Assembly: GCA_025451375.1 (NCBI GenBank)
Contig: JANWKL010000076.1
Location: 1 to 48,602 of the forward strand
Length of the DNA stretch: 48,602 bases
Source of the DNA: Steroidobacteraceae bacterium
Lineage (GTDB): Bacteria; Pseudomonadota; Gammaproteobacteria; Steroidobacterales; Steroidobacteraceae
Direction of reading: 5' to 3'
This document shows, piece after piece, positions 3,070 to 30,022 of this stretch (within the stretch, counting starts at the first letter, position 1; every line of letters starts with the position of its first letter). The position numbers were made by a program, and so were the translations under genes. The notes beneath the pieces were generated by a model. That model was not told the origin of the DNA and searched no databases. It was given only the letters and a program-made list of their open reading frames with translations.

Positions 3070-4182
3070 GTGACAAGAGTAACGATCGCAATCGCCTGTC
3101 TGATCGCCATTGCGCTCGGTGCAACCAGCCCAAAGGCGATGGCACAGGACTATCCGGGCCAGCTGCCCGACGTGAGCACTTACCGAGGCAGCATGGAGCA
3201 GGAGCGGCGCGACGCGGAAAGCACCCAGCAGGTGCAGCAGCAAAACCAGCAGATGCAGCAACGCCTGGATGAGAACTACAGATCCTATGCGCCCGGCGGA
3301 GCGGGCGGGGGTGGCGGCCGTGGGGGACCGCCCTTGACGTCCAAGCCGCTACTGCCGCCAGACAAGAACCCGCTCCTCGGTCGTTGGCGACAGACCGCCG
3401 GCAAGCCCGTGAATCTCGGTCTCCTCGGTCAGATGCCCGGCGCGTCACAGATGGTCAACGGCGCTTTTGGTGGCGGCTGTCAGTCGATATTCGGCAAGGG
3501 CATGGTTGCGTTCGCACCCAGCACGTACAACTGGGTGGCGCCGGACGGTCACGAAGAAGTTCTCAACCACGTGGAGTACCGGTCCGACGGACCCAACGTG
3601 ATCGTCATTCCCAGCGATCCGCAGCCGCTGCCACTGATCTTTGGCTTTCCCAACCATGATCATGCGGTGGTGGCCCTGCTGGGCTGCACCATGCAGCGGG
3701 TCGCGCCCGGCGCCGAGCAGGCACAGGCCAGTCCGGCGGCATCGAAGGTTCCGGCCGGACAGGCGATTCTCGACCTCAACGCGGGGGCGACGGTGGCAGG
3801 GAAATTCTCGCCTGTGCCCGCCGGAACCCCGCTGTGGCTGACTCAGCAGAACCCTGACGCCAGCCTGGTGAAGGCGGGATTCACGCCCGACGCCGGCGGG
3901 CAGCCGATCGAAAAGCTGTTCGCAGCCTGCAAGATCGGTCACGGCGGCACTATGGAGGGCTGCAATCGCGGCATGCAGGCCATGCTCACCGGCGCGCTCG
4001 GCGTTGCGCGCACGGATGCCGCGGGCCATGCCCGCACTGGCGCGGTCACCCCGGGCCGATACTACCTGGTGGGCTTTGTGCCGTATCAGGGTCACTCGCT
4101 GATGTGGCACATGCCGGTGGACATGAGGCCCGGCGTGAATTCCCTGACGCTCGAACCGCAGAACGGCAGCATCAGCCACTGA
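3070..4182 (+). CDS. Secreted protein of unknown function
   Basis: I do not recognise the family. From the GTG at 3070 (GAGG 8 nt upstream) the product is 370 residues and begins with a typical Sec signal peptide ending in PKAMA before QDYPG; the earlier in-frame TTG at 3037 would only add residues in front of the signal. The mature N-terminus is Gln/Glu-rich and probably helical (about residues 25-65), followed by a Gly-rich linker. The next region, with paired cysteines and the segment CQSIFGKGMVAFAP, may form a beta fold. The C-terminal third resembles a small beta-sandwich repeat in which 'GHARTGAVTPGRYYLVGF' looks like a carboxypeptidase-regulatory-type motif. Likely periplasmic or outer-surface. 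It is divergent from ygiQ and convergent with the protease gene. Confidence 0.75.
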   Translation: MTRVTIAIACLIAIALGATSPKAMAQDYPGQLPDVSTYRGSMEQERRDAESTQQVQQQNQQMQQRLDENYRSYAPGGAGGGGGRGGPPLTSKPLLPPDKNPLLGRWRQTAGKPVNLGLLGQMPGASQMVNGAFGGGCQSIFGKGMVAFAPSTYNWVAPDGHEEVLNHVEYRSDGPNVIVIPSDPQPLPLIFGFPNHDHAVVALLGCTMQRVAPGAEQAQASPAASKVPAGQAILDLNAGATVAGKFSPVPAGTPLWLTQQNPDASLVKAGFTPDAGGQPIEKLFAACKIGHGGTMEGCNRGMQAMLTGALGVARTDAAGHARTGAVTPGRYYLVGFVPYQGHSLMWHMPVDMRPGVNSLTLEPQNGSISH

Positions 4183-4227
4183 TTTGGTCAGCCCAAGGCC
4201 CGCAATCCGATGAAATCGAGGACCTGG

Positions 4228-7158
4228 TCATGAAAACGAGACTTCACTTCGCGGCTCCGCTGAGTCTTGCGGCACTCCTTGCCTGTAGCGTGTACGTAAC
4301 GAAGACGGCATCGCCCGAGCTACGCGAGGCCGGCGCCAAGCCCCCAGCACTGCCAGGAGCGTCAGCTCCAGCACACCGATAGCGCCGCCCCCGCCATGGC
4401 CAGCGTCGGGCGCAGGGCCCGCGACGTGGCTCACGTTGTGGGCCGCGATATTCAGTGTCGCCTGCGTCGTGACGGATCCCACGCTGGGATCAACGCTCTG
4501 ACACGTGAGCCCGTAGGTGAATTGGCCGGACTGCGCGATGTCGGCCACGCTGCCGGCGGGAGGCCCGCTCACGTCCGCGCTTTGCGCCCAGGCGCCTCCC
4601 GGAATGCCGCCCGTGGCGGTGCAACTTTCGGCGTTGATCGATGACCACGAGATCGTGAAGGGCTGGCCCACGACCGGGGCGCCCGGGTTGAAAGCGATGG
4701 TCGCCGTCGGTGCGGGCGGCGGCAGCACCGTGAGCGTCGTGGGCGTGGTGTTGACCGTAACGCTCGCGCCGGCGATGAATGCGGTGCATGTGAGCGACAC
4801 CTGGTAAGTGCCGGACGCCGGCGGAGCGAGCGTCAGTACGCCCTGCGGCGCCGTCCCGACGGCGGCGCTGCTGGTGTTGATGTTGGAAGTGGACGACAGC
4901 GAGCAGCTCGACAGGTTCGAGTTGTAAGTCAGCGTCACGTAGTCCGCCGGCGAATCACTGAAAGTCACCGTCGGATTGCCGAGGGTGGCGGTTGCGTAAG
5001 GAGCAGAGTCTTCAAACGTCACCGTGACGCTCTTCTGCAAAGAGAGCGCGCCAGCGGAGCAGGTCAGGGAGTACGTGTAGGTGCCCAGCGTTGTAACCTG
5101 TGGATCGAACTGCGGCGCAGACCCCGGTGGGAATGCGGTACTCGCCCAGCCGTCGTTGGGAGCGCCTCCTGAAGGAGTGCACTGTGTGTTCGGGGCAGTT
5201 ACCCATTGCAGGCTGAACGCTGCTCCCAGCAGACGGTCGGTGCCATTGGCGTAGAACGCCAGGCTCGGGTCAAGCCATTGAACCGGGGTCGTCACCCTGC
5301 CGCCGTCGTTGGCGGGACCGCAGCTCAGGGTGTAAAGCACTTCACCGGCGGCAGTCCCGGTGATGGGGGTGGTACCGGACGCCGACAGATTGCTCAACGC
5401 AACACCGCCGCCACTGATCGAGCACGGCGCTACATTGGAGCTCCAGCTTAAGCTCACCCCAGTGCCCGCCCAGGCACTGGCTGTAGATGCAGTGAATTGC
5501 AGCTGTGGCGCCGGGCTTGCCCAGGTGATGCGGGTCGACGCCACGCTGCTGCGACCCCCCGGATACGCGCAGGTCAGTGAGTAGCTCACGACGCCCACGC
5601 CCGGTTCGCTAACCAATTGGGTTCCGGAAGGCGGCAGCGTGCCCGTCCAGCCGTCGCCCGCCACCCCCTCGCCAGCGCTGCATTGCGTGGCGTTGGCGGC
5701 ACTCCACATGAGCCGCACCGGCTGCCCGAAGATGACCGTGTCCTCGGCCGCACCGAAAATAATGACAGCCAGCGGCGCACTTGGCACCACGGTGATGCCG
5801 CTGTTGTTCGGGTCGAGCACTGATTTAAGTGTCGCGCTTCCGGTAGTACTGGTGGAATCCGCGGTCGAGTTCCACACCGACGCGAGCGCGGTGAAGTCCG
5901 CCACGCCGTTGGCGCCATTCGGGGCTGGCGGATTGGCGATGGGGCAGGAGCCGTAACCGGACGCGTCGCTGGTCGCACGGCCCAGGGTGAGCGCTCCGAC
6001 CAGGTGGTTGTTCTGATCGAACAGGCCGCTGCCGGAGGCGCCCGGTCCAACGTTGCCGGTAGCATTCACCGTTTCCCAGAAGTCGGAAACATACTTCACG
6101 CCCAGCACGGCGCTTTGCTGCAAGGCCATCGCCTGACCGAACCAGCCGGTGAACTGCTTGTCGTAGCCTTGCGCGTGGTGGATGGTGTAGCCGCCCTGCA
6201 CCGGACCGCCGGAGGCGTCGAAGCCCGCAAGCTGCGCATCGGCGACCACCGGCTGGGCATCCAGCTCGATCAGCCAGGCGTCCTGCTGCTCAACGATGGT
6301 TCGCGCGCCGGTCTGAGCCGGCACGCCCGCGTCGTAAATCGAGGCCAGGGTCTTGCCGCACGGGCTCGTGGCGTCCCAATAGACCGTGACGCCCGACGCC
6401 GCGCCCGGCAGGCCACCGCCCAGGTGTCCGGTCTCGCAGTGCCGTGCCGTGAGGATGTACGGGGTATTGTCGCCCGGCACGTCATTGATCAGTGAGCCGG
6501 AACACTGGTTCAGGTTGCCAACAACCAGCGCCACGGTGGCAGCTCCCGACGGCGTGTTGCCGGGGCTGACCTGACAAGCGTAGTTGGTGACGCAGGACGC
6601 ACTGCTGGTAGCCGCGGCCTGTTGCGCCTTGAGTTCACGGTAGTAGGGGTGATCGGACACACCGGGACCGAGGGAGCGATAACCGGCCTGCAGACTGACG
6701 ATGTTAAAGGCGACCTTGCCGCGGTCTTCGGCGGCGACGTTGAGTGCAAACTGCAACGCTGCGCCGGGCTGGATGCGGCTCCACAGCTCGCCGCGGTGCA
6801 GATCGTGCGCGCGGTAGCTCACCGTGCTCTGCGTGCCGCGCACGACGAGCACCGCGCTGGCAGGCAGCGACGAAAGGGTGGCGTGAAACGACAGCGACAC
6901 CGCCGTCGGCACGTCGACGGCGTATTGCCAGGTGGCACGGCCGGCCGCGACTGACCAGCTGCCACCTGACGCCGCCGAAACCGCGTGCGGTACCAGGACC
7001 GCAAATTGCACCGGCGAATCGAAGCCGGCACGGATGAGCGGCTTCAGATCCGTTTTGACAATATGCACCGGTACGGCCGCCACTGCCACGGTCGCTGACA
7101 TCGATAGCAACGCTGCGAGTGCGGCTGCGGAGCCGCGCCGGCAGATTCCCCTGGTCAC
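4228..7158 (-). CDS. Secreted trypsin-like serine protease with Ig-like repeats and GlyGly-CTERM tail
   Basis: A 976-residue exported endopeptidase starting at GTG 7158. An N-terminal signal peptide (about residues 1-28) precedes a propeptide-like region. The peptidase domain spans about residues 200-430: the catalytic triad is visible as H240 (TARHC), a D in QQDAWLIELD (D293) and S375 (GPGASGSG). C219, C241 and C267 suggest disulfides, as in lysyl endopeptidase-like enzymes. Several Ig-like beta-sandwich repeats of about 90-100 residues follow, each with paired cysteines. Near the end is a GlyGly-CTERM-like block (about 920-945): Gly run, hydrophobic helix, RRPR. This is the rhombosortase-type sorting signal. 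Odd point: the frame continues 31 residues past RRPR, overlapping an opposing small ORF. It lies 28 bp after the rhombotarget lipoprotein gene, so the two are probably one operon. Preferred cleavage specificity cannot be read. Confidence 0.85.
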   Translation of the reverse strand: MTRGICRRGSAAALAALLSMSATVAVAAVPVHIVKTDLKPLIRAGFDSPVQFAVLVPHAVSAASGGSWSVAAGRATWQYAVDVPTAVSLSFHATLSSLPASAVLVVRGTQSTVSYRAHDLHRGELWSRIQPGAALQFALNVAAEDRGKVAFNIVSLQAGYRSLGPGVSDHPYYRELKAQQAAATSSASCVTNYACQVSPGNTPSGAATVALVVGNLNQCSGSLINDVPGDNTPYILTARHCETGHLGGGLPGAASGVTVYWDATSPCGKTLASIYDAGVPAQTGARTIVEQQDAWLIELDAQPVVADAQLAGFDASGGPVQGGYTIHHAQGYDKQFTGWFGQAMALQQSAVLGVKYVSDFWETVNATGNVGPGASGSGLFDQNNHLVGALTLGRATSDASGYGSCPIANPPAPNGANGVADFTALASVWNSTADSTSTTGSATLKSVLDPNNSGITVVPSAPLAVIIFGAAEDTVIFGQPVRLMWSAANATQCSAGEGVAGDGWTGTLPPSGTQLVSEPGVGVVSYSLTCAYPGGRSSVASTRITWASPAPQLQFTASTASAWAGTGVSLSWSSNVAPCSISGGGVALSNLSASGTTPITGTAAGEVLYTLSCGPANDGGRVTTPVQWLDPSLAFYANGTDRLLGAAFSLQWVTAPNTQCTPSGGAPNDGWASTAFPPGSAPQFDPQVTTLGTYTYSLTCSAGALSLQKSVTVTFEDSAPYATATLGNPTVTFSDSPADYVTLTYNSNLSSCSLSSTSNINTSSAAVGTAPQGVLTLAPPASGTYQVSLTCTAFIAGASVTVNTTPTTLTVLPPPAPTATIAFNPGAPVVGQPFTISWSSINAESCTATGGIPGGAWAQSADVSGPPAGSVADIAQSGQFTYGLTCQSVDPSVGSVTTQATLNIAAHNVSHVAGPAPDAGHGGGGAIGVLELTLLAVLGAWRRPRVARAMPSSLRTRYRQGVPQDSAEPRSEVSFS
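4230..4382 (+). CDS. Possible small lipoprotein, antisense to protease 3' end
   Basis: A 50-codon frame with GAGG 10 nt before the ATG. Its N-terminus (MKTRLHF, then the hydrophobic stretch LSLAALLAC) looks like a lipoprotein signal with a LAAC-type lipobox. It lies 48 bp after the preceding plus-strand gene and entirely overlaps the last 51 codons of the convergent protease frame. One of the two readings over this stretch may not be real, because the protease's expected C-terminal sorting tail ends before it. Could be a truncated remnant of a longer gene. Confidence 0.3.
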   Translation: MKTRLHFAAPLSLAALLACSVYVTKTASPELREAGAKPPALPGASAPAHR

Positions 7159-27872: not shown

Positions 27873-29996
27873 TCAGATATCGAGGTGCAGCTGCGCCTGG
27901 CCTGGGCCGGGCGCGCGAAAGAGCGTCGTTCTCAAGGCATCGCGCCCCGATGACGCGAGCTTCAGGCGCGCGCAGGCCATGCGAAATCGGTTGCGTAGCA
28001 ACAAAGCAAAAGGCCCCGTCCCCCGCATCCGCGAGCCGAAGTTCGGGTCGTTGTCGCGCCCGTCGCGCATGGCGCGCACCAGCGACATGACGTGTGCCGC
28101 GCGCTCCGGATAGTGCTGCGCCAGCCATTCGGCGAACAGATCCTTGATCTCGTAGGGCAATCGCAGCAGCACGTAGCTCGCCCAGCCAACGCCCGCCGCG
28201 GCCGCGGCGGCCAGGATGTCTTCCATCTCGTGGTCGGTAAGCGCGGGGATCACGGGAGCGACCATGACGCCCGTCGGCACGCCGGCGGCGTGCAGTCCGG
28301 CGAGCGTGCGCAGGCGCGCCTGCGGCGAGGCGGCGCGCGGCTCCAGCGTGCGCTTGAGGTTCGGGTCCAGGGAGGTAACGCTCACCGCGACGCTCGCCAG
28401 GCCATCGCGCGCCATGTCAGCGAGCAGGTCGAGATCGCGCAACACGAGCGCGCTCTTGGTGATCACGGTTACCGGATGGCGCGTGCGCGCCAACACTTCG
28501 AGAATGGAACGCGTCACGCGCATTTTTTTCTCGACCGGCTGATAGGGATCGGTGTTGGCGCCGAGCATGATCGGCTTGCACACATAGCCCGGGCGCGACA
28601 GCTCCCCTTCCAACACCCGCGCGGCGTCCGCCTTGTAGAAGAGGCGCGTCTCGAAGTCCAACCCGGGCGAGAGACCCATGTAGGCGTGGCTCGGGCGGGC
28701 GTAGCAATTGTGGCTTATCACGCCGTTGGCGATGAAGTCTTCGGTCTCGGTCGTGATGTCGTAGAGGCGCATCGCTTTTAACGGCTCAATGCTGACGACA
28801 CCGAGGCGGGCGTCGCTCTTGACGGCCTGACCAGTGATGTCGAGCTTGCGCAAAATGGCAGGGTCGAAGGTATGAAAGAAACGAAGATGCTCTTTCAATC
28901 CGCCCGTAAGTCTCACGATATCCATAGGCTTTCTGTGTTCGAAATGCACTTGCTCAACCACGAAAGAAAAGCCAAAGTCGCGCATGCACCTGCAAATCCA
29001 ACCGATAATTTCCGGGTCGGTGTTTGGAATGCGAAAGACTGTCTGACTGAAGCTGCCTTCGGCATCGAATATCCCGGCGAGAAAGCCCGCCGACCACTGC
29101 GCGTTGGGAGAAAGCGGCCAGGCGATGAGTCGGCGAATCGATGCTACATTCGCGAAGGAGTGGGTCCTGATCGCGTGCATGGCTCTTCGATTGCCGGCGG
29201 CAGCCTGGAACAAGTACCCGTTGGTCGAGATCTCGAAGTCGAGAAGATAGTTGCGCGCCCTGACCAGAGCCTCCTGATCACATAAGGCGAGTCGGAATTG
29301 GTGTTGATTGCCATGGCTCCTTCCCGGCCGCGAGTAGGAGTAGGACGCCAGCAACCCGTCGCCGCGGATCATCCCGCACAGATAACCTGACCGATAGTCG
29401 ACGCCCTTCTCCACCGATGCGGCGAAGGCGCCCGTTCCCATGAGTTTGTTCGAGGTCGTGAGGTGCGGCCTTCGGTTGGTACCCTGTTCAGTGCCGGTCA
29501 CGAACTTCCAGCCGCGATCCGACAGAAAACGGTGGTCCGCGCCTGACACGAGCGTGGTGCCGTTCTCCAGCGTTGTCCGGAATGCCGGCTTGATGCTGCT
29601 CCAGTGCGCGAGCACGCGAGATTTCACGTAGCGCCGGAACTGTCCGACACGCCGGGTGCCATAGATTTCATCACCAACTCGCAACTCTGATATGGGACGC
29701 GTGCGGCCATCTGACATGAGGACCGGTGTGTCGCCAGCTACGCAATAGGTGCAACCATGAGAGCATCCGCGATATGGATTGATGGACCGCTCAAAGGGAA
29801 TGTCGGGAGAGTCGTTGGTGCTGATGACCGAGCGGGCGCGCTCGGGCTCCAGCGTCGTGGGAATGCTGTCGGGAGTCTCTTCGAGGTACCACCCGTCATC
29901 GACCGGGGCGAGGCTCTGCAGGTCGAAACGCCCGGGAGGATTTGAGAGCGCCCCCCTGCCCTTGAACAGCTGCTTGCCTGTGATCGAGCGCCTCAC
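27873..29996 (-). CDS. PA0069-family radical SAM protein interrupted by an intein
   Basis: A 707-residue precursor starting at GTG 29996. Residues 1-84 and 431-707 together form a 361-residue PA0069-type (SPL-like) radical SAM protein, a normal size for that family. The cluster motif CxxxCxxC is C78, C82 and, after splicing, C431: the intein lies between Y84 and C431, so mature sequence reads RGCSHGCTY|CYARPSHAYM. Without splicing the third cluster ligand would be replaced in position by the intein's own C85. The natural substrate is unknown; relatives include spore photoproduct lyase-like enzymes. A LexA box lies 7 bp before the start codon, suggesting SOS induction and a DNA-damage role. 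The Rv2578c radical SAM family in mycobacteria is also known to carry inteins. Confidence 0.93.
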   Translation of the reverse strand: MRRSITGKQLFKGRGALSNPPGRFDLQSLAPVDDGWYLEETPDSIPTTLEPERARSVISTNDSPDIPFERSINPYRGCSHGCTYCVAGDTPVLMSDGRTRPISELRVGDEIYGTRRVGQFRRYVKSRVLAHWSSIKPAFRTTLENGTTLVSGADHRFLSDRGWKFVTGTEQGTNRRPHLTTSNKLMGTGAFAASVEKGVDYRSGYLCGMIRGDGLLASYSYSRPGRSHGNQHQFRLALCDQEALVRARNYLLDFEISTNGYLFQAAAGNRRAMHAIRTHSFANVASIRRLIAWPLSPNAQWSAGFLAGIFDAEGSFSQTVFRIPNTDPEIIGWICRCMRDFGFSFVVEQVHFEHRKPMDIVRLTGGLKEHLRFFHTFDPAILRKLDITGQAVKSDARLGVVSIEPLKAMRLYDITTETEDFIANGVISHNCYARPSHAYMGLSPGLDFETRLFYKADAARVLEGELSRPGYVCKPIMLGANTDPYQPVEKKMRVTRSILEVLARTRHPVTVITKSALVLRDLDLLADMARDGLASVAVSVTSLDPNLKRTLEPRAASPQARLRTLAGLHAAGVPTGVMVAPVIPALTDHEMEDILAAAAAAGVGWASYVLLRLPYEIKDLFAEWLAQHYPERAAHVMSLVRAMRDGRDNDPNFGSRMRGTGPFALLLRNRFRMACARLKLASSGRDALRTTLFRAPGPGQAQLHLDI
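28707..29744 (-). mobile_element. In-frame intein with LAGLIDADG homing endonuclease
   Basis: Covers residues 85-430 of the radical SAM precursor (346 residues). Splicing residues are present: N-terminal Cys (CVAGDTPVL, block A), the block B region with H155 (SGADHRF), block F (LYDITTETEDFIANG) and C-terminal His-Asn (VISHN, H429/N430) followed by Cys +1. Two LAGLIDADG-type motifs, LCGMIRGDG (about 206-214) and LAGIFDAEG (about 306-314), indicate a homing endonuclease that looks intact. The DNA here is visibly less GC-rich than the flanking gene (stretches such as that near 28870-29010), which fits recent horizontal arrival. Splicing is inferred, not shown. Confidence 0.93.
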
Positions 29997-30002
29997 ACGG
30001 CA

Positions 30003-30022
30003 TACTGTACATTCATACAGTA
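30003..30022. promoter_or_regulatory. LexA (SOS) box
   Basis: TACTGT-N8-ACAGTA, a perfect match to the E. coli-type consensus CTGT-N8-ACAG with symmetrical TA flanks. It starts 7 bp before the GTG of the radical SAM gene. A TATACT (-10-like, minus strand, 30019-30024) overlaps it, so bound LexA would block the promoter. The other neighbour (DUF4870 gene) ends toward this site and is not a target. Confidence 0.8.

Follow-up and report, generated by a model that had tools for sequence, protein, structure and literature searches.

By its sequence, the segment running from 29744 to 28707 on the minus strand of the window (the whole 48,602-nucleotide stretch of Steroidobacteraceae DNA analyzed here) is a class-1-type intein in a radical SAM gene of the PA0069 family. 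We consider it highly probable that this is a mobile class 1 intein with a probably active, I-DmoI-like endonuclease, residing in an SOS-regulated gene at a site that has been colonized in multiple phyla. This explanation draws on the insertion site, the splicing residues, a LexA box, the endonuclease acids, the presence and absence of the intein among relatives, and a conflict between host and intein trees; it would have the protein splice, the endonuclease cut, and LexA repress the gene in the source organism.

The proposed sequence of events starts with DNA damage, which would release LexA and allow the precursor to be made. Excision of the intein would follow, carried out by Cys1, His71 of block B, the terminal His-Asn, and the +1 Cys, and splicing would restore the third [4Fe-4S] ligand to yield the mature enzyme along with a free endonuclease. 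The endonuclease would cut intein-free alleles, leading to their conversion by recombination. Oxidation, or metal or cluster binding at the CxxC or CxxxCxxC cysteines, could stall splicing as a side property.

The family appears as one kind of intein placed at the Fe-S motif of a radical SAM gene that responds to damage, and it spans several bacterial phyla. Its endonucleases range from seemingly active to dead or deleted, and the genus of the window adds empty sites. Such a natural set therefore makes two questions testable, namely redox sensing at the CxxC junction and whether an SOS-tied endonuclease aids homing.

An intein at the cluster motif of a PA0069-family gene

The precursor (Table 1) scored 485 bits against the NF033668 model of the PA0069 family in the NCBIfam protein scan, where the cut-off is 360, and the predicted spliced product would have the CxxxCxxC motif of that family as C78-x3-C82-x2-C431. 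We presume this host to be comparable to SplB (COG1533). The intein begins with CVAGDTPVLM, ends with ANGVISHN, and lies directly before the third cysteine of the host motif.

Table 1. Features of the intein-bearing gene and its upstream region, in window coordinates.
Feature	Position	Strand	Basis
Host precursor gene, 707 aa, PA0069-family radical SAM with intein, GTG start	27873..29996	-	NF033668
N-extein, residues 1-84, end CSHGCTY (PYRGCSHGCTY)	29745..29996	-	Sequence reading
Cluster cysteine C78	29765-29763	-	N-extein
Cluster cysteine C82	29753-29751	-	N-extein
Intein, 346 aa, C1...HN; C85 (29744) to N430 (28707)	28707..29744	-	ORF reading, profile matches, alignment
Intein Cys1 (C85), completes CxxxCxxC of unspliced precursor	29742..29744	-	Sequence reading
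Block B His, intein H71, in 82/82 aligned inteins	29532..29534	-	Alignment
LAGLIDADG motif 1, GYLCGMIRGDG, acid D129	29355..29387	-	Aligns with I-DmoI
LAGLIDADG motif 2, GFLAGIFDAEG, acid E229	29055..29087	-	Aligns with I-DmoI
C-extein, 277 aa, start CYARPSHAYM	27873..28706	-	Sequence reading
+1 Cys = C431, third cluster cysteine of spliced enzyme	28706-28704	-	Sequence reading
LexA operator (predicted) TACTGTATGAATGTACAGTA, 6 nt before GTG start	30003..30022	-	Box search

A preliminary description of this DNA had placed an intein at these positions in a radical SAM gene, which both the ORF reading and the profile matches bear out. Its numbering of the splicing residues (C85, H429, N430, and the +1 Cys) and its view that they are intact also hold, as does its report of two intact LAGLIDADG motifs, which occupy intein residues 120-130 and 220-230. 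The description further stated that the intein splits the CxxxCxxC motif. The insertion is indeed between the second and third cysteines, but the unspliced precursor still reads CxxxCxxC (C78, C82, and C85), because intein residue 1 is itself a cysteine and the third cysteine of the motif is swapped for the intein nucleophile.

Sequence and alignment gave the residue set of class 1 inteins, with Cys1, a block B histidine, a C-terminal His-Asn, and a cysteine at the +1 position, where Cys, Ser, or Thr is expected. The intein C-terminal motif TIGR01443 scored 20.9 (cut-off 15.6), while the N-terminal motif TIGR01445 (cut-off 24.5) fell short of its threshold in the protein scan (20.2) and exceeded it in the genome scan (24.9); matches to the Pfam models Intein_splicing (PF14890) and LAGLIDADG_3 were under their gathering scores. 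Among 84 complete inteins from 82 distinct genes, Cys1, the terminal Asn, and the +1 Cys were each found in 84/84 and His-Asn in 83/84. Splicing of the window intein would be expected from these residues. The lone complete intein with Leu-Asn rather than His-Asn, at positions 4001-5038 of locus L026, is the nearest to that of the window (87% identical). It may splice poorly or represent a natural loss of the penultimate His, and because this closest relative has Leu in place of that residue, splicing may vary within the group.

One intein family, its predicted endonuclease, and its probable mobility

A scan of genome contigs identified relatives of the intein at 78 loci. The same x|C insertion site was read at 76 of them and the other two are cut by contig ends; the same 76 loci, all those with a readable N-junction, have Cys at intein residue 1. 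Our reading pattern required that cysteine, and no readable-junction locus among the 78 was lost thereby. The 84 complete inteins comprise 71 of these 78, the one in the window, and a further 12 that the genus search supplied, including one in the window's own genome bin. Dropped loci were those with a cut N-junction (L046, L082), a missing C-junction (L039, L062, L068, L078, L085), or an extein of fewer than 150 aa after the junction, along with copies (L027 of L109, L056 of L110, L118 of L010); L127 repeats L057, and L117 and L119 were left unread. L006 has Trp before the site and was therefore missed by the reading pattern; it was later shown to be empty and stands outside the box counts and trees.

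Across both host and intein, residues 41-632 of the window protein aligned unbroken with NF038136, the NCBIfam model for the intein-containing Rv2578c family, at 487 bits (cut-off 700), and the protein scored 220 bits against the Rv2578c model (cut-off 430), a cut-off passed by all three actinobacterial genomes tested. The host tree separates an actinobacterial Rv2578c-type clade (40 rows) from a PA0069-side clade (65 rows) with SH-aLRT support of 100%, and the intein site is common to all 41 Rv-type loci fetched. Homologous inteins at the same site in two host clades therefore point to one intein family, one site, and two related host subfamilies. The preliminary description had proposed a comparison with Rv2578c inteins, which did reveal a homologous intein inserted at this x|C position, but its suggestion that the site might be special to the PA0069-type gene is unsupported for the same reason. 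As read from these alignments, the insertion site is not new and has been colonized by one intein family in many phyla, and the intein is mostly ordinary because its family is widespread at that very site. Our literature searches (on PA0069, on Rv2578c, and on inteins with radical SAM, LexA/SOS, SplB, or MoaA) returned no title or abstract opening on this site, and the available part of one report places phage inteins in terminase, PhoH, and ribonucleotide reductase genes and names none in its radical SAM gene (PMC3322345).

Both LAGLIDADG motifs carry their acid (D129 and E229), as in LAGLIDADG homing endonucleases, and motifs and acids alike aligned with I-DmoI (E 0.0006). Both acids (D or E) were present at 33 of the 41 PA-side loci, window included; five others were mini-inteins, two had neither acid, and one had a single acid. 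The corresponding counts for the 41 Rv-type loci were 10 with both acids, 11 mini-inteins, 10 with neither, and 10 with one. These residues suggest that the window endonuclease is probably active, and the set as a whole looks like a homing cycle of invasion, decay, and deletion. Between the window and L026, dN/dS was 0.10 for the endonuclease and 0.11 for the N-terminal splicing part; for the endonucleases of L111 and L112 it was 0.70 despite acids at both places. We stopped treating a low dN/dS as demonstrating endonuclease activity, since the value was also low (0.16) for L071 and L076, an Amycolatopsis pair with neither acid; a low ratio fits activity and does not prove it.

Sixteen natural mini-inteins of 143-185 aa, in which the endonuclease domain is deleted, occupy the same site (L107 in genome G036, L086, L087, L095, L098, L089-L092, L094, L096, L097, and L099-L102) and are possible short splicing tools. 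L097 is likely a misnamed record: its title is Rhodococcus rhodnii, the genome measures 12.4 Mb, and the intein is almost the same as Kibdelosporangium inteins. A wrong name may also have been given to L036, which is titled Bordetella parapertussis and falls among Betaproteobacteria bins.

In the 37 genomes of the window's genus (its own included), 12 had the intein, 18 had the gene without it, and seven had no clear gene (no match in six and a short one in G003), although such absence is unsure because many of the assemblies are incomplete. Intein-free alleles in close relatives, which the preliminary description had proposed looking for, are thus common. One of them, L115 in genome G023, has a frameshift directly after the insertion site that may be an assembly error or a scar; it was kept unmended and left out of the trees. 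The family cut-off was passed by 87 of the 196 genomes in a sample of the order, with the split match of an intein-bearing gene in five of these 87 and in G147, which is below the cut-off. All belong to the family of the window, and the calls for G155, G120, and G147 were judged by match pattern.

Mapped onto the 105-row host tree, the intein label needs at least 10 changes, three of which are forced by strongly supported branches. The hosts of the window and L113 are sisters (90% identity, support 100/100), yet their inteins, at 63% identity, belong to separate groups of the intein tree. A single group of the window, L026, and L113 inteins was rejected (AU p ~1e-6), a post hoc result in that the group was named after the trees had been viewed. 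Synonymous distance between the window and L113 was 0.60 in the host and 1.38 in the intein; the corresponding values between L093 and L104 were 0.29 and 0.94. The larger dS of the inteins and the conflict between trees match the prediction of intein replacement by homing or recombination, and on this evidence the window intein looks like a mobile homing intein.

Foreign base composition proved a weak sign of arrival (GC3 of 0.71 in the intein, compared with 0.76 and 0.86 in the exteins). Nine stretches in viral contigs matched the search pattern, none encoding a relative, and four plasmid records matched at no more than 29.1% identity, so no vector was found in the viral and plasmid collections. 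One of the plasmid sequences (NZ_CP129127.1, positions 81504-82508, Streptomyces) has no listed gene there and is 29% identical over the whole intein. A hand-written and poorly designed DNA pattern for an empty site had no match in the window's genome.

Alternatively, the intein might be a remnant in decay whose endonuclease no longer works and which persists only because it has to splice. The lost acids and deleted domains of many relatives, above all the Rv-type loci counted above, are in keeping with such decay, and the low dN/dS of the acid-less Amycolatopsis pair means that a low value alone is not exclusive to working enzymes. The window, however, keeps both acids together with its low endonuclease ratio, and the pattern of presence and absence in the genus and the tree conflict favor recent mobility, which leaves the remnant reading distinctly improbable. 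The arrangement could also be an artifact of assembly or binning: the genome is in 173 contigs, its contamination stands at 3.67%, and contig C134 carries the gene a second time in diverged form. We judge the chance of this to be negligible. An assembly error is very unlikely because the same gene structure was read at 76 other loci in many assemblies, and C134, which has an intein of its own, resembles this locus in another member.

On C134 (genome G000, locus L108, 6084 bases), the host is 76% identical to that of the window and the intein 58%. The alignment of this contig with the window starts within the gene and extends across the upstream neighbors (to 33136) at 69-74% DNA identity, while the contig's 3' flank (L108 bases 1-768) had no match in the window as DNA or in translation. 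A paralog was thought unlikely, the upstream synteny being as in another member's locus. C134 probably entered the bin from another member of the genus as contamination, which is likely rather than proven because the 3' flank matched nothing in the window. The same bin holds a second intein on contig C118 (locus L124, 1153-2475, plus strand), in a dCTP deaminase gene (DCD, PF22769), where the Intein_splicing domain sits between GKSTYAR and CGIIVNV.

LexA boxes at the host gene

The preliminary description had also called the host gene LexA-controlled, and the box search fits this, with TACTGTATGAATGTACAGTA lying by the GTG start. Allowing up to one mismatch, the genome bin has just one other TACTGTN8ACAGTA site, right upstream of the predicted lexA start, and the box at the gene start has the same form as this box at the genome's own lexA. 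A sigma-70 scan upstream of the host gene found none.

Within the genus, CTGTN8ACAG was found at 10 of 13 intein loci and at nine of 17 distinct empty loci (18 rows, of which L118 copies L010), where mononucleotide shuffles gave an expectation of about 0.04 loci in either set; all 19 boxes are 274-278 nt before the junction. Beyond the genus, the 40 PA-side intein loci with sufficient upstream sequence included 19 with CTGTN8ACAG, one with the actinobacterial form, and 20 without a strict SOS box. The actinobacterial box GAACN4GTTC was present at 34 of the 41 Rv-type intein loci. Empty alleles gave a similar picture: 12 of 27 on the PA side had strict boxes (19 of 27 when CTGN10CAG was admitted), and GAACN4GTTC was found at eight of the 10 empty Rv2578c alleles read (0.01 expected) and at two of the three intein-bearing relatives in the same follow-up set (15 loci, 13 read).

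The idea that LexA coupling is tied to the intein, as the preliminary description had it, was therefore rejected, since empty PA-side and empty Rv2578c alleles carry boxes too. Because boxes occur with or without the intein and under two LexA motifs, LexA control is a property of the host gene. From these predicted operators, LexA control of the gene is well supported, and LexA would be expected to repress it in the source organism.

Junction cysteines and comparison with known systems

Because intein residue 1 is Cys, the second cluster cysteine, C82, stands at -3 and makes a CxxC pair with Cys1, a spacing in the linear sequence rather than in the fold. By analogy with other inteins, splicing here might be subject to a redox or metal checkpoint, of which the preliminary description had raised the redox form. 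Conservation is uninformative on redox control because the host motif needs the -3 and +1 cysteines and splicing needs Cys1, and such a checkpoint is not needed because about half of the genus has intein-free alleles.

One version of this idea would have the intein kept as a redox switch, with oxidation forming a disulfide between Cys(-3) and Cys1 so that the oxygen-labile enzyme is completed only in a reducing cell. The CxxC at the junction suits this, as do the MoaA intein of Pyrococcus abyssi, where a bond between an N-extein Cys and Cys1 under oxidation blocks splicing (PMC10663303), and the oxidative inhibition of a mycobacterial DnaB intein (PMC6195587). We nonetheless consider it unlikely, as 18 of the 37 genus genomes have the gene without an intein, mobility accounts for where the intein occurs, and the cysteines would be required in any case. 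Alternatively, the precursor CxxxCxxC (two extein cysteines and Cys1) might block Cys1 by binding a metal or Fe-S cluster, and splicing would then sense iron or cluster supply. Zinc on the catalytic Cys does block a DnaB intein (PMC7360933), and the precursor motif is intact in the window and at 76 of 78 loci, the other two being cut by contig ends; Cys1, however, is in the splicing site, which may disallow cluster geometry, and this version seems to us highly improbable. A combination is also conceivable, though quite unlikely, in which LexA would time the precursor and endonuclease to DNA damage while CxxxCxxC, with oxidation or metal or Fe-S, would hold splicing. If true, damage-timed expression would coincide with the abundant recombination proteins needed for homing, and splicing would be delayed to a time when the enzyme's cluster can be assembled; recurrence across phyla would follow from the association of this intein family with a host gene whose SOS control operates through two LexA motifs. 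The mobile intein in an SOS-regulated host remains our preferred explanation.

Its parts resemble several known systems. SOS control of splB genes has been reported in alpha- and beta-Proteobacteria and was unseen in the gamma-Proteobacteria of that study, going by the available part of the report (PMC3323433), and it has been described in Bacteroidetes (PMC8565304). SOS-regulated splB (COG1533) and the window gene are alike in being radical SAM repair-type genes under LexA control, with LexA motifs that differ among groups, whereas the available text of these reports mentions no intein for splB (PMC3323433, PMC8565304). The NF038136 system has a homologous intein, the same site, and the same host type, but the window host is of the PA0069 type, scoring over the NF033668 cut-off, and so belongs to the other host subfamily; the NCBIfam scan contained no separate intein-containing model for that subfamily. 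I-DmoI, a free intron-encoded enzyme, shares both motifs and acids with the window intein at weak similarity (E 0.0006), whereas the window endonuclease is nested inside an intein. MoaA is, like the present host, a radical SAM enzyme. Its intein in P. abyssi has an N-extein cysteine able to pair with Cys1, as C82 of the window gene may be, in a different host and with redox control reported in the available text (PMC10663303); the likeness to the window intein considered here is that of a possible cysteine pairing.
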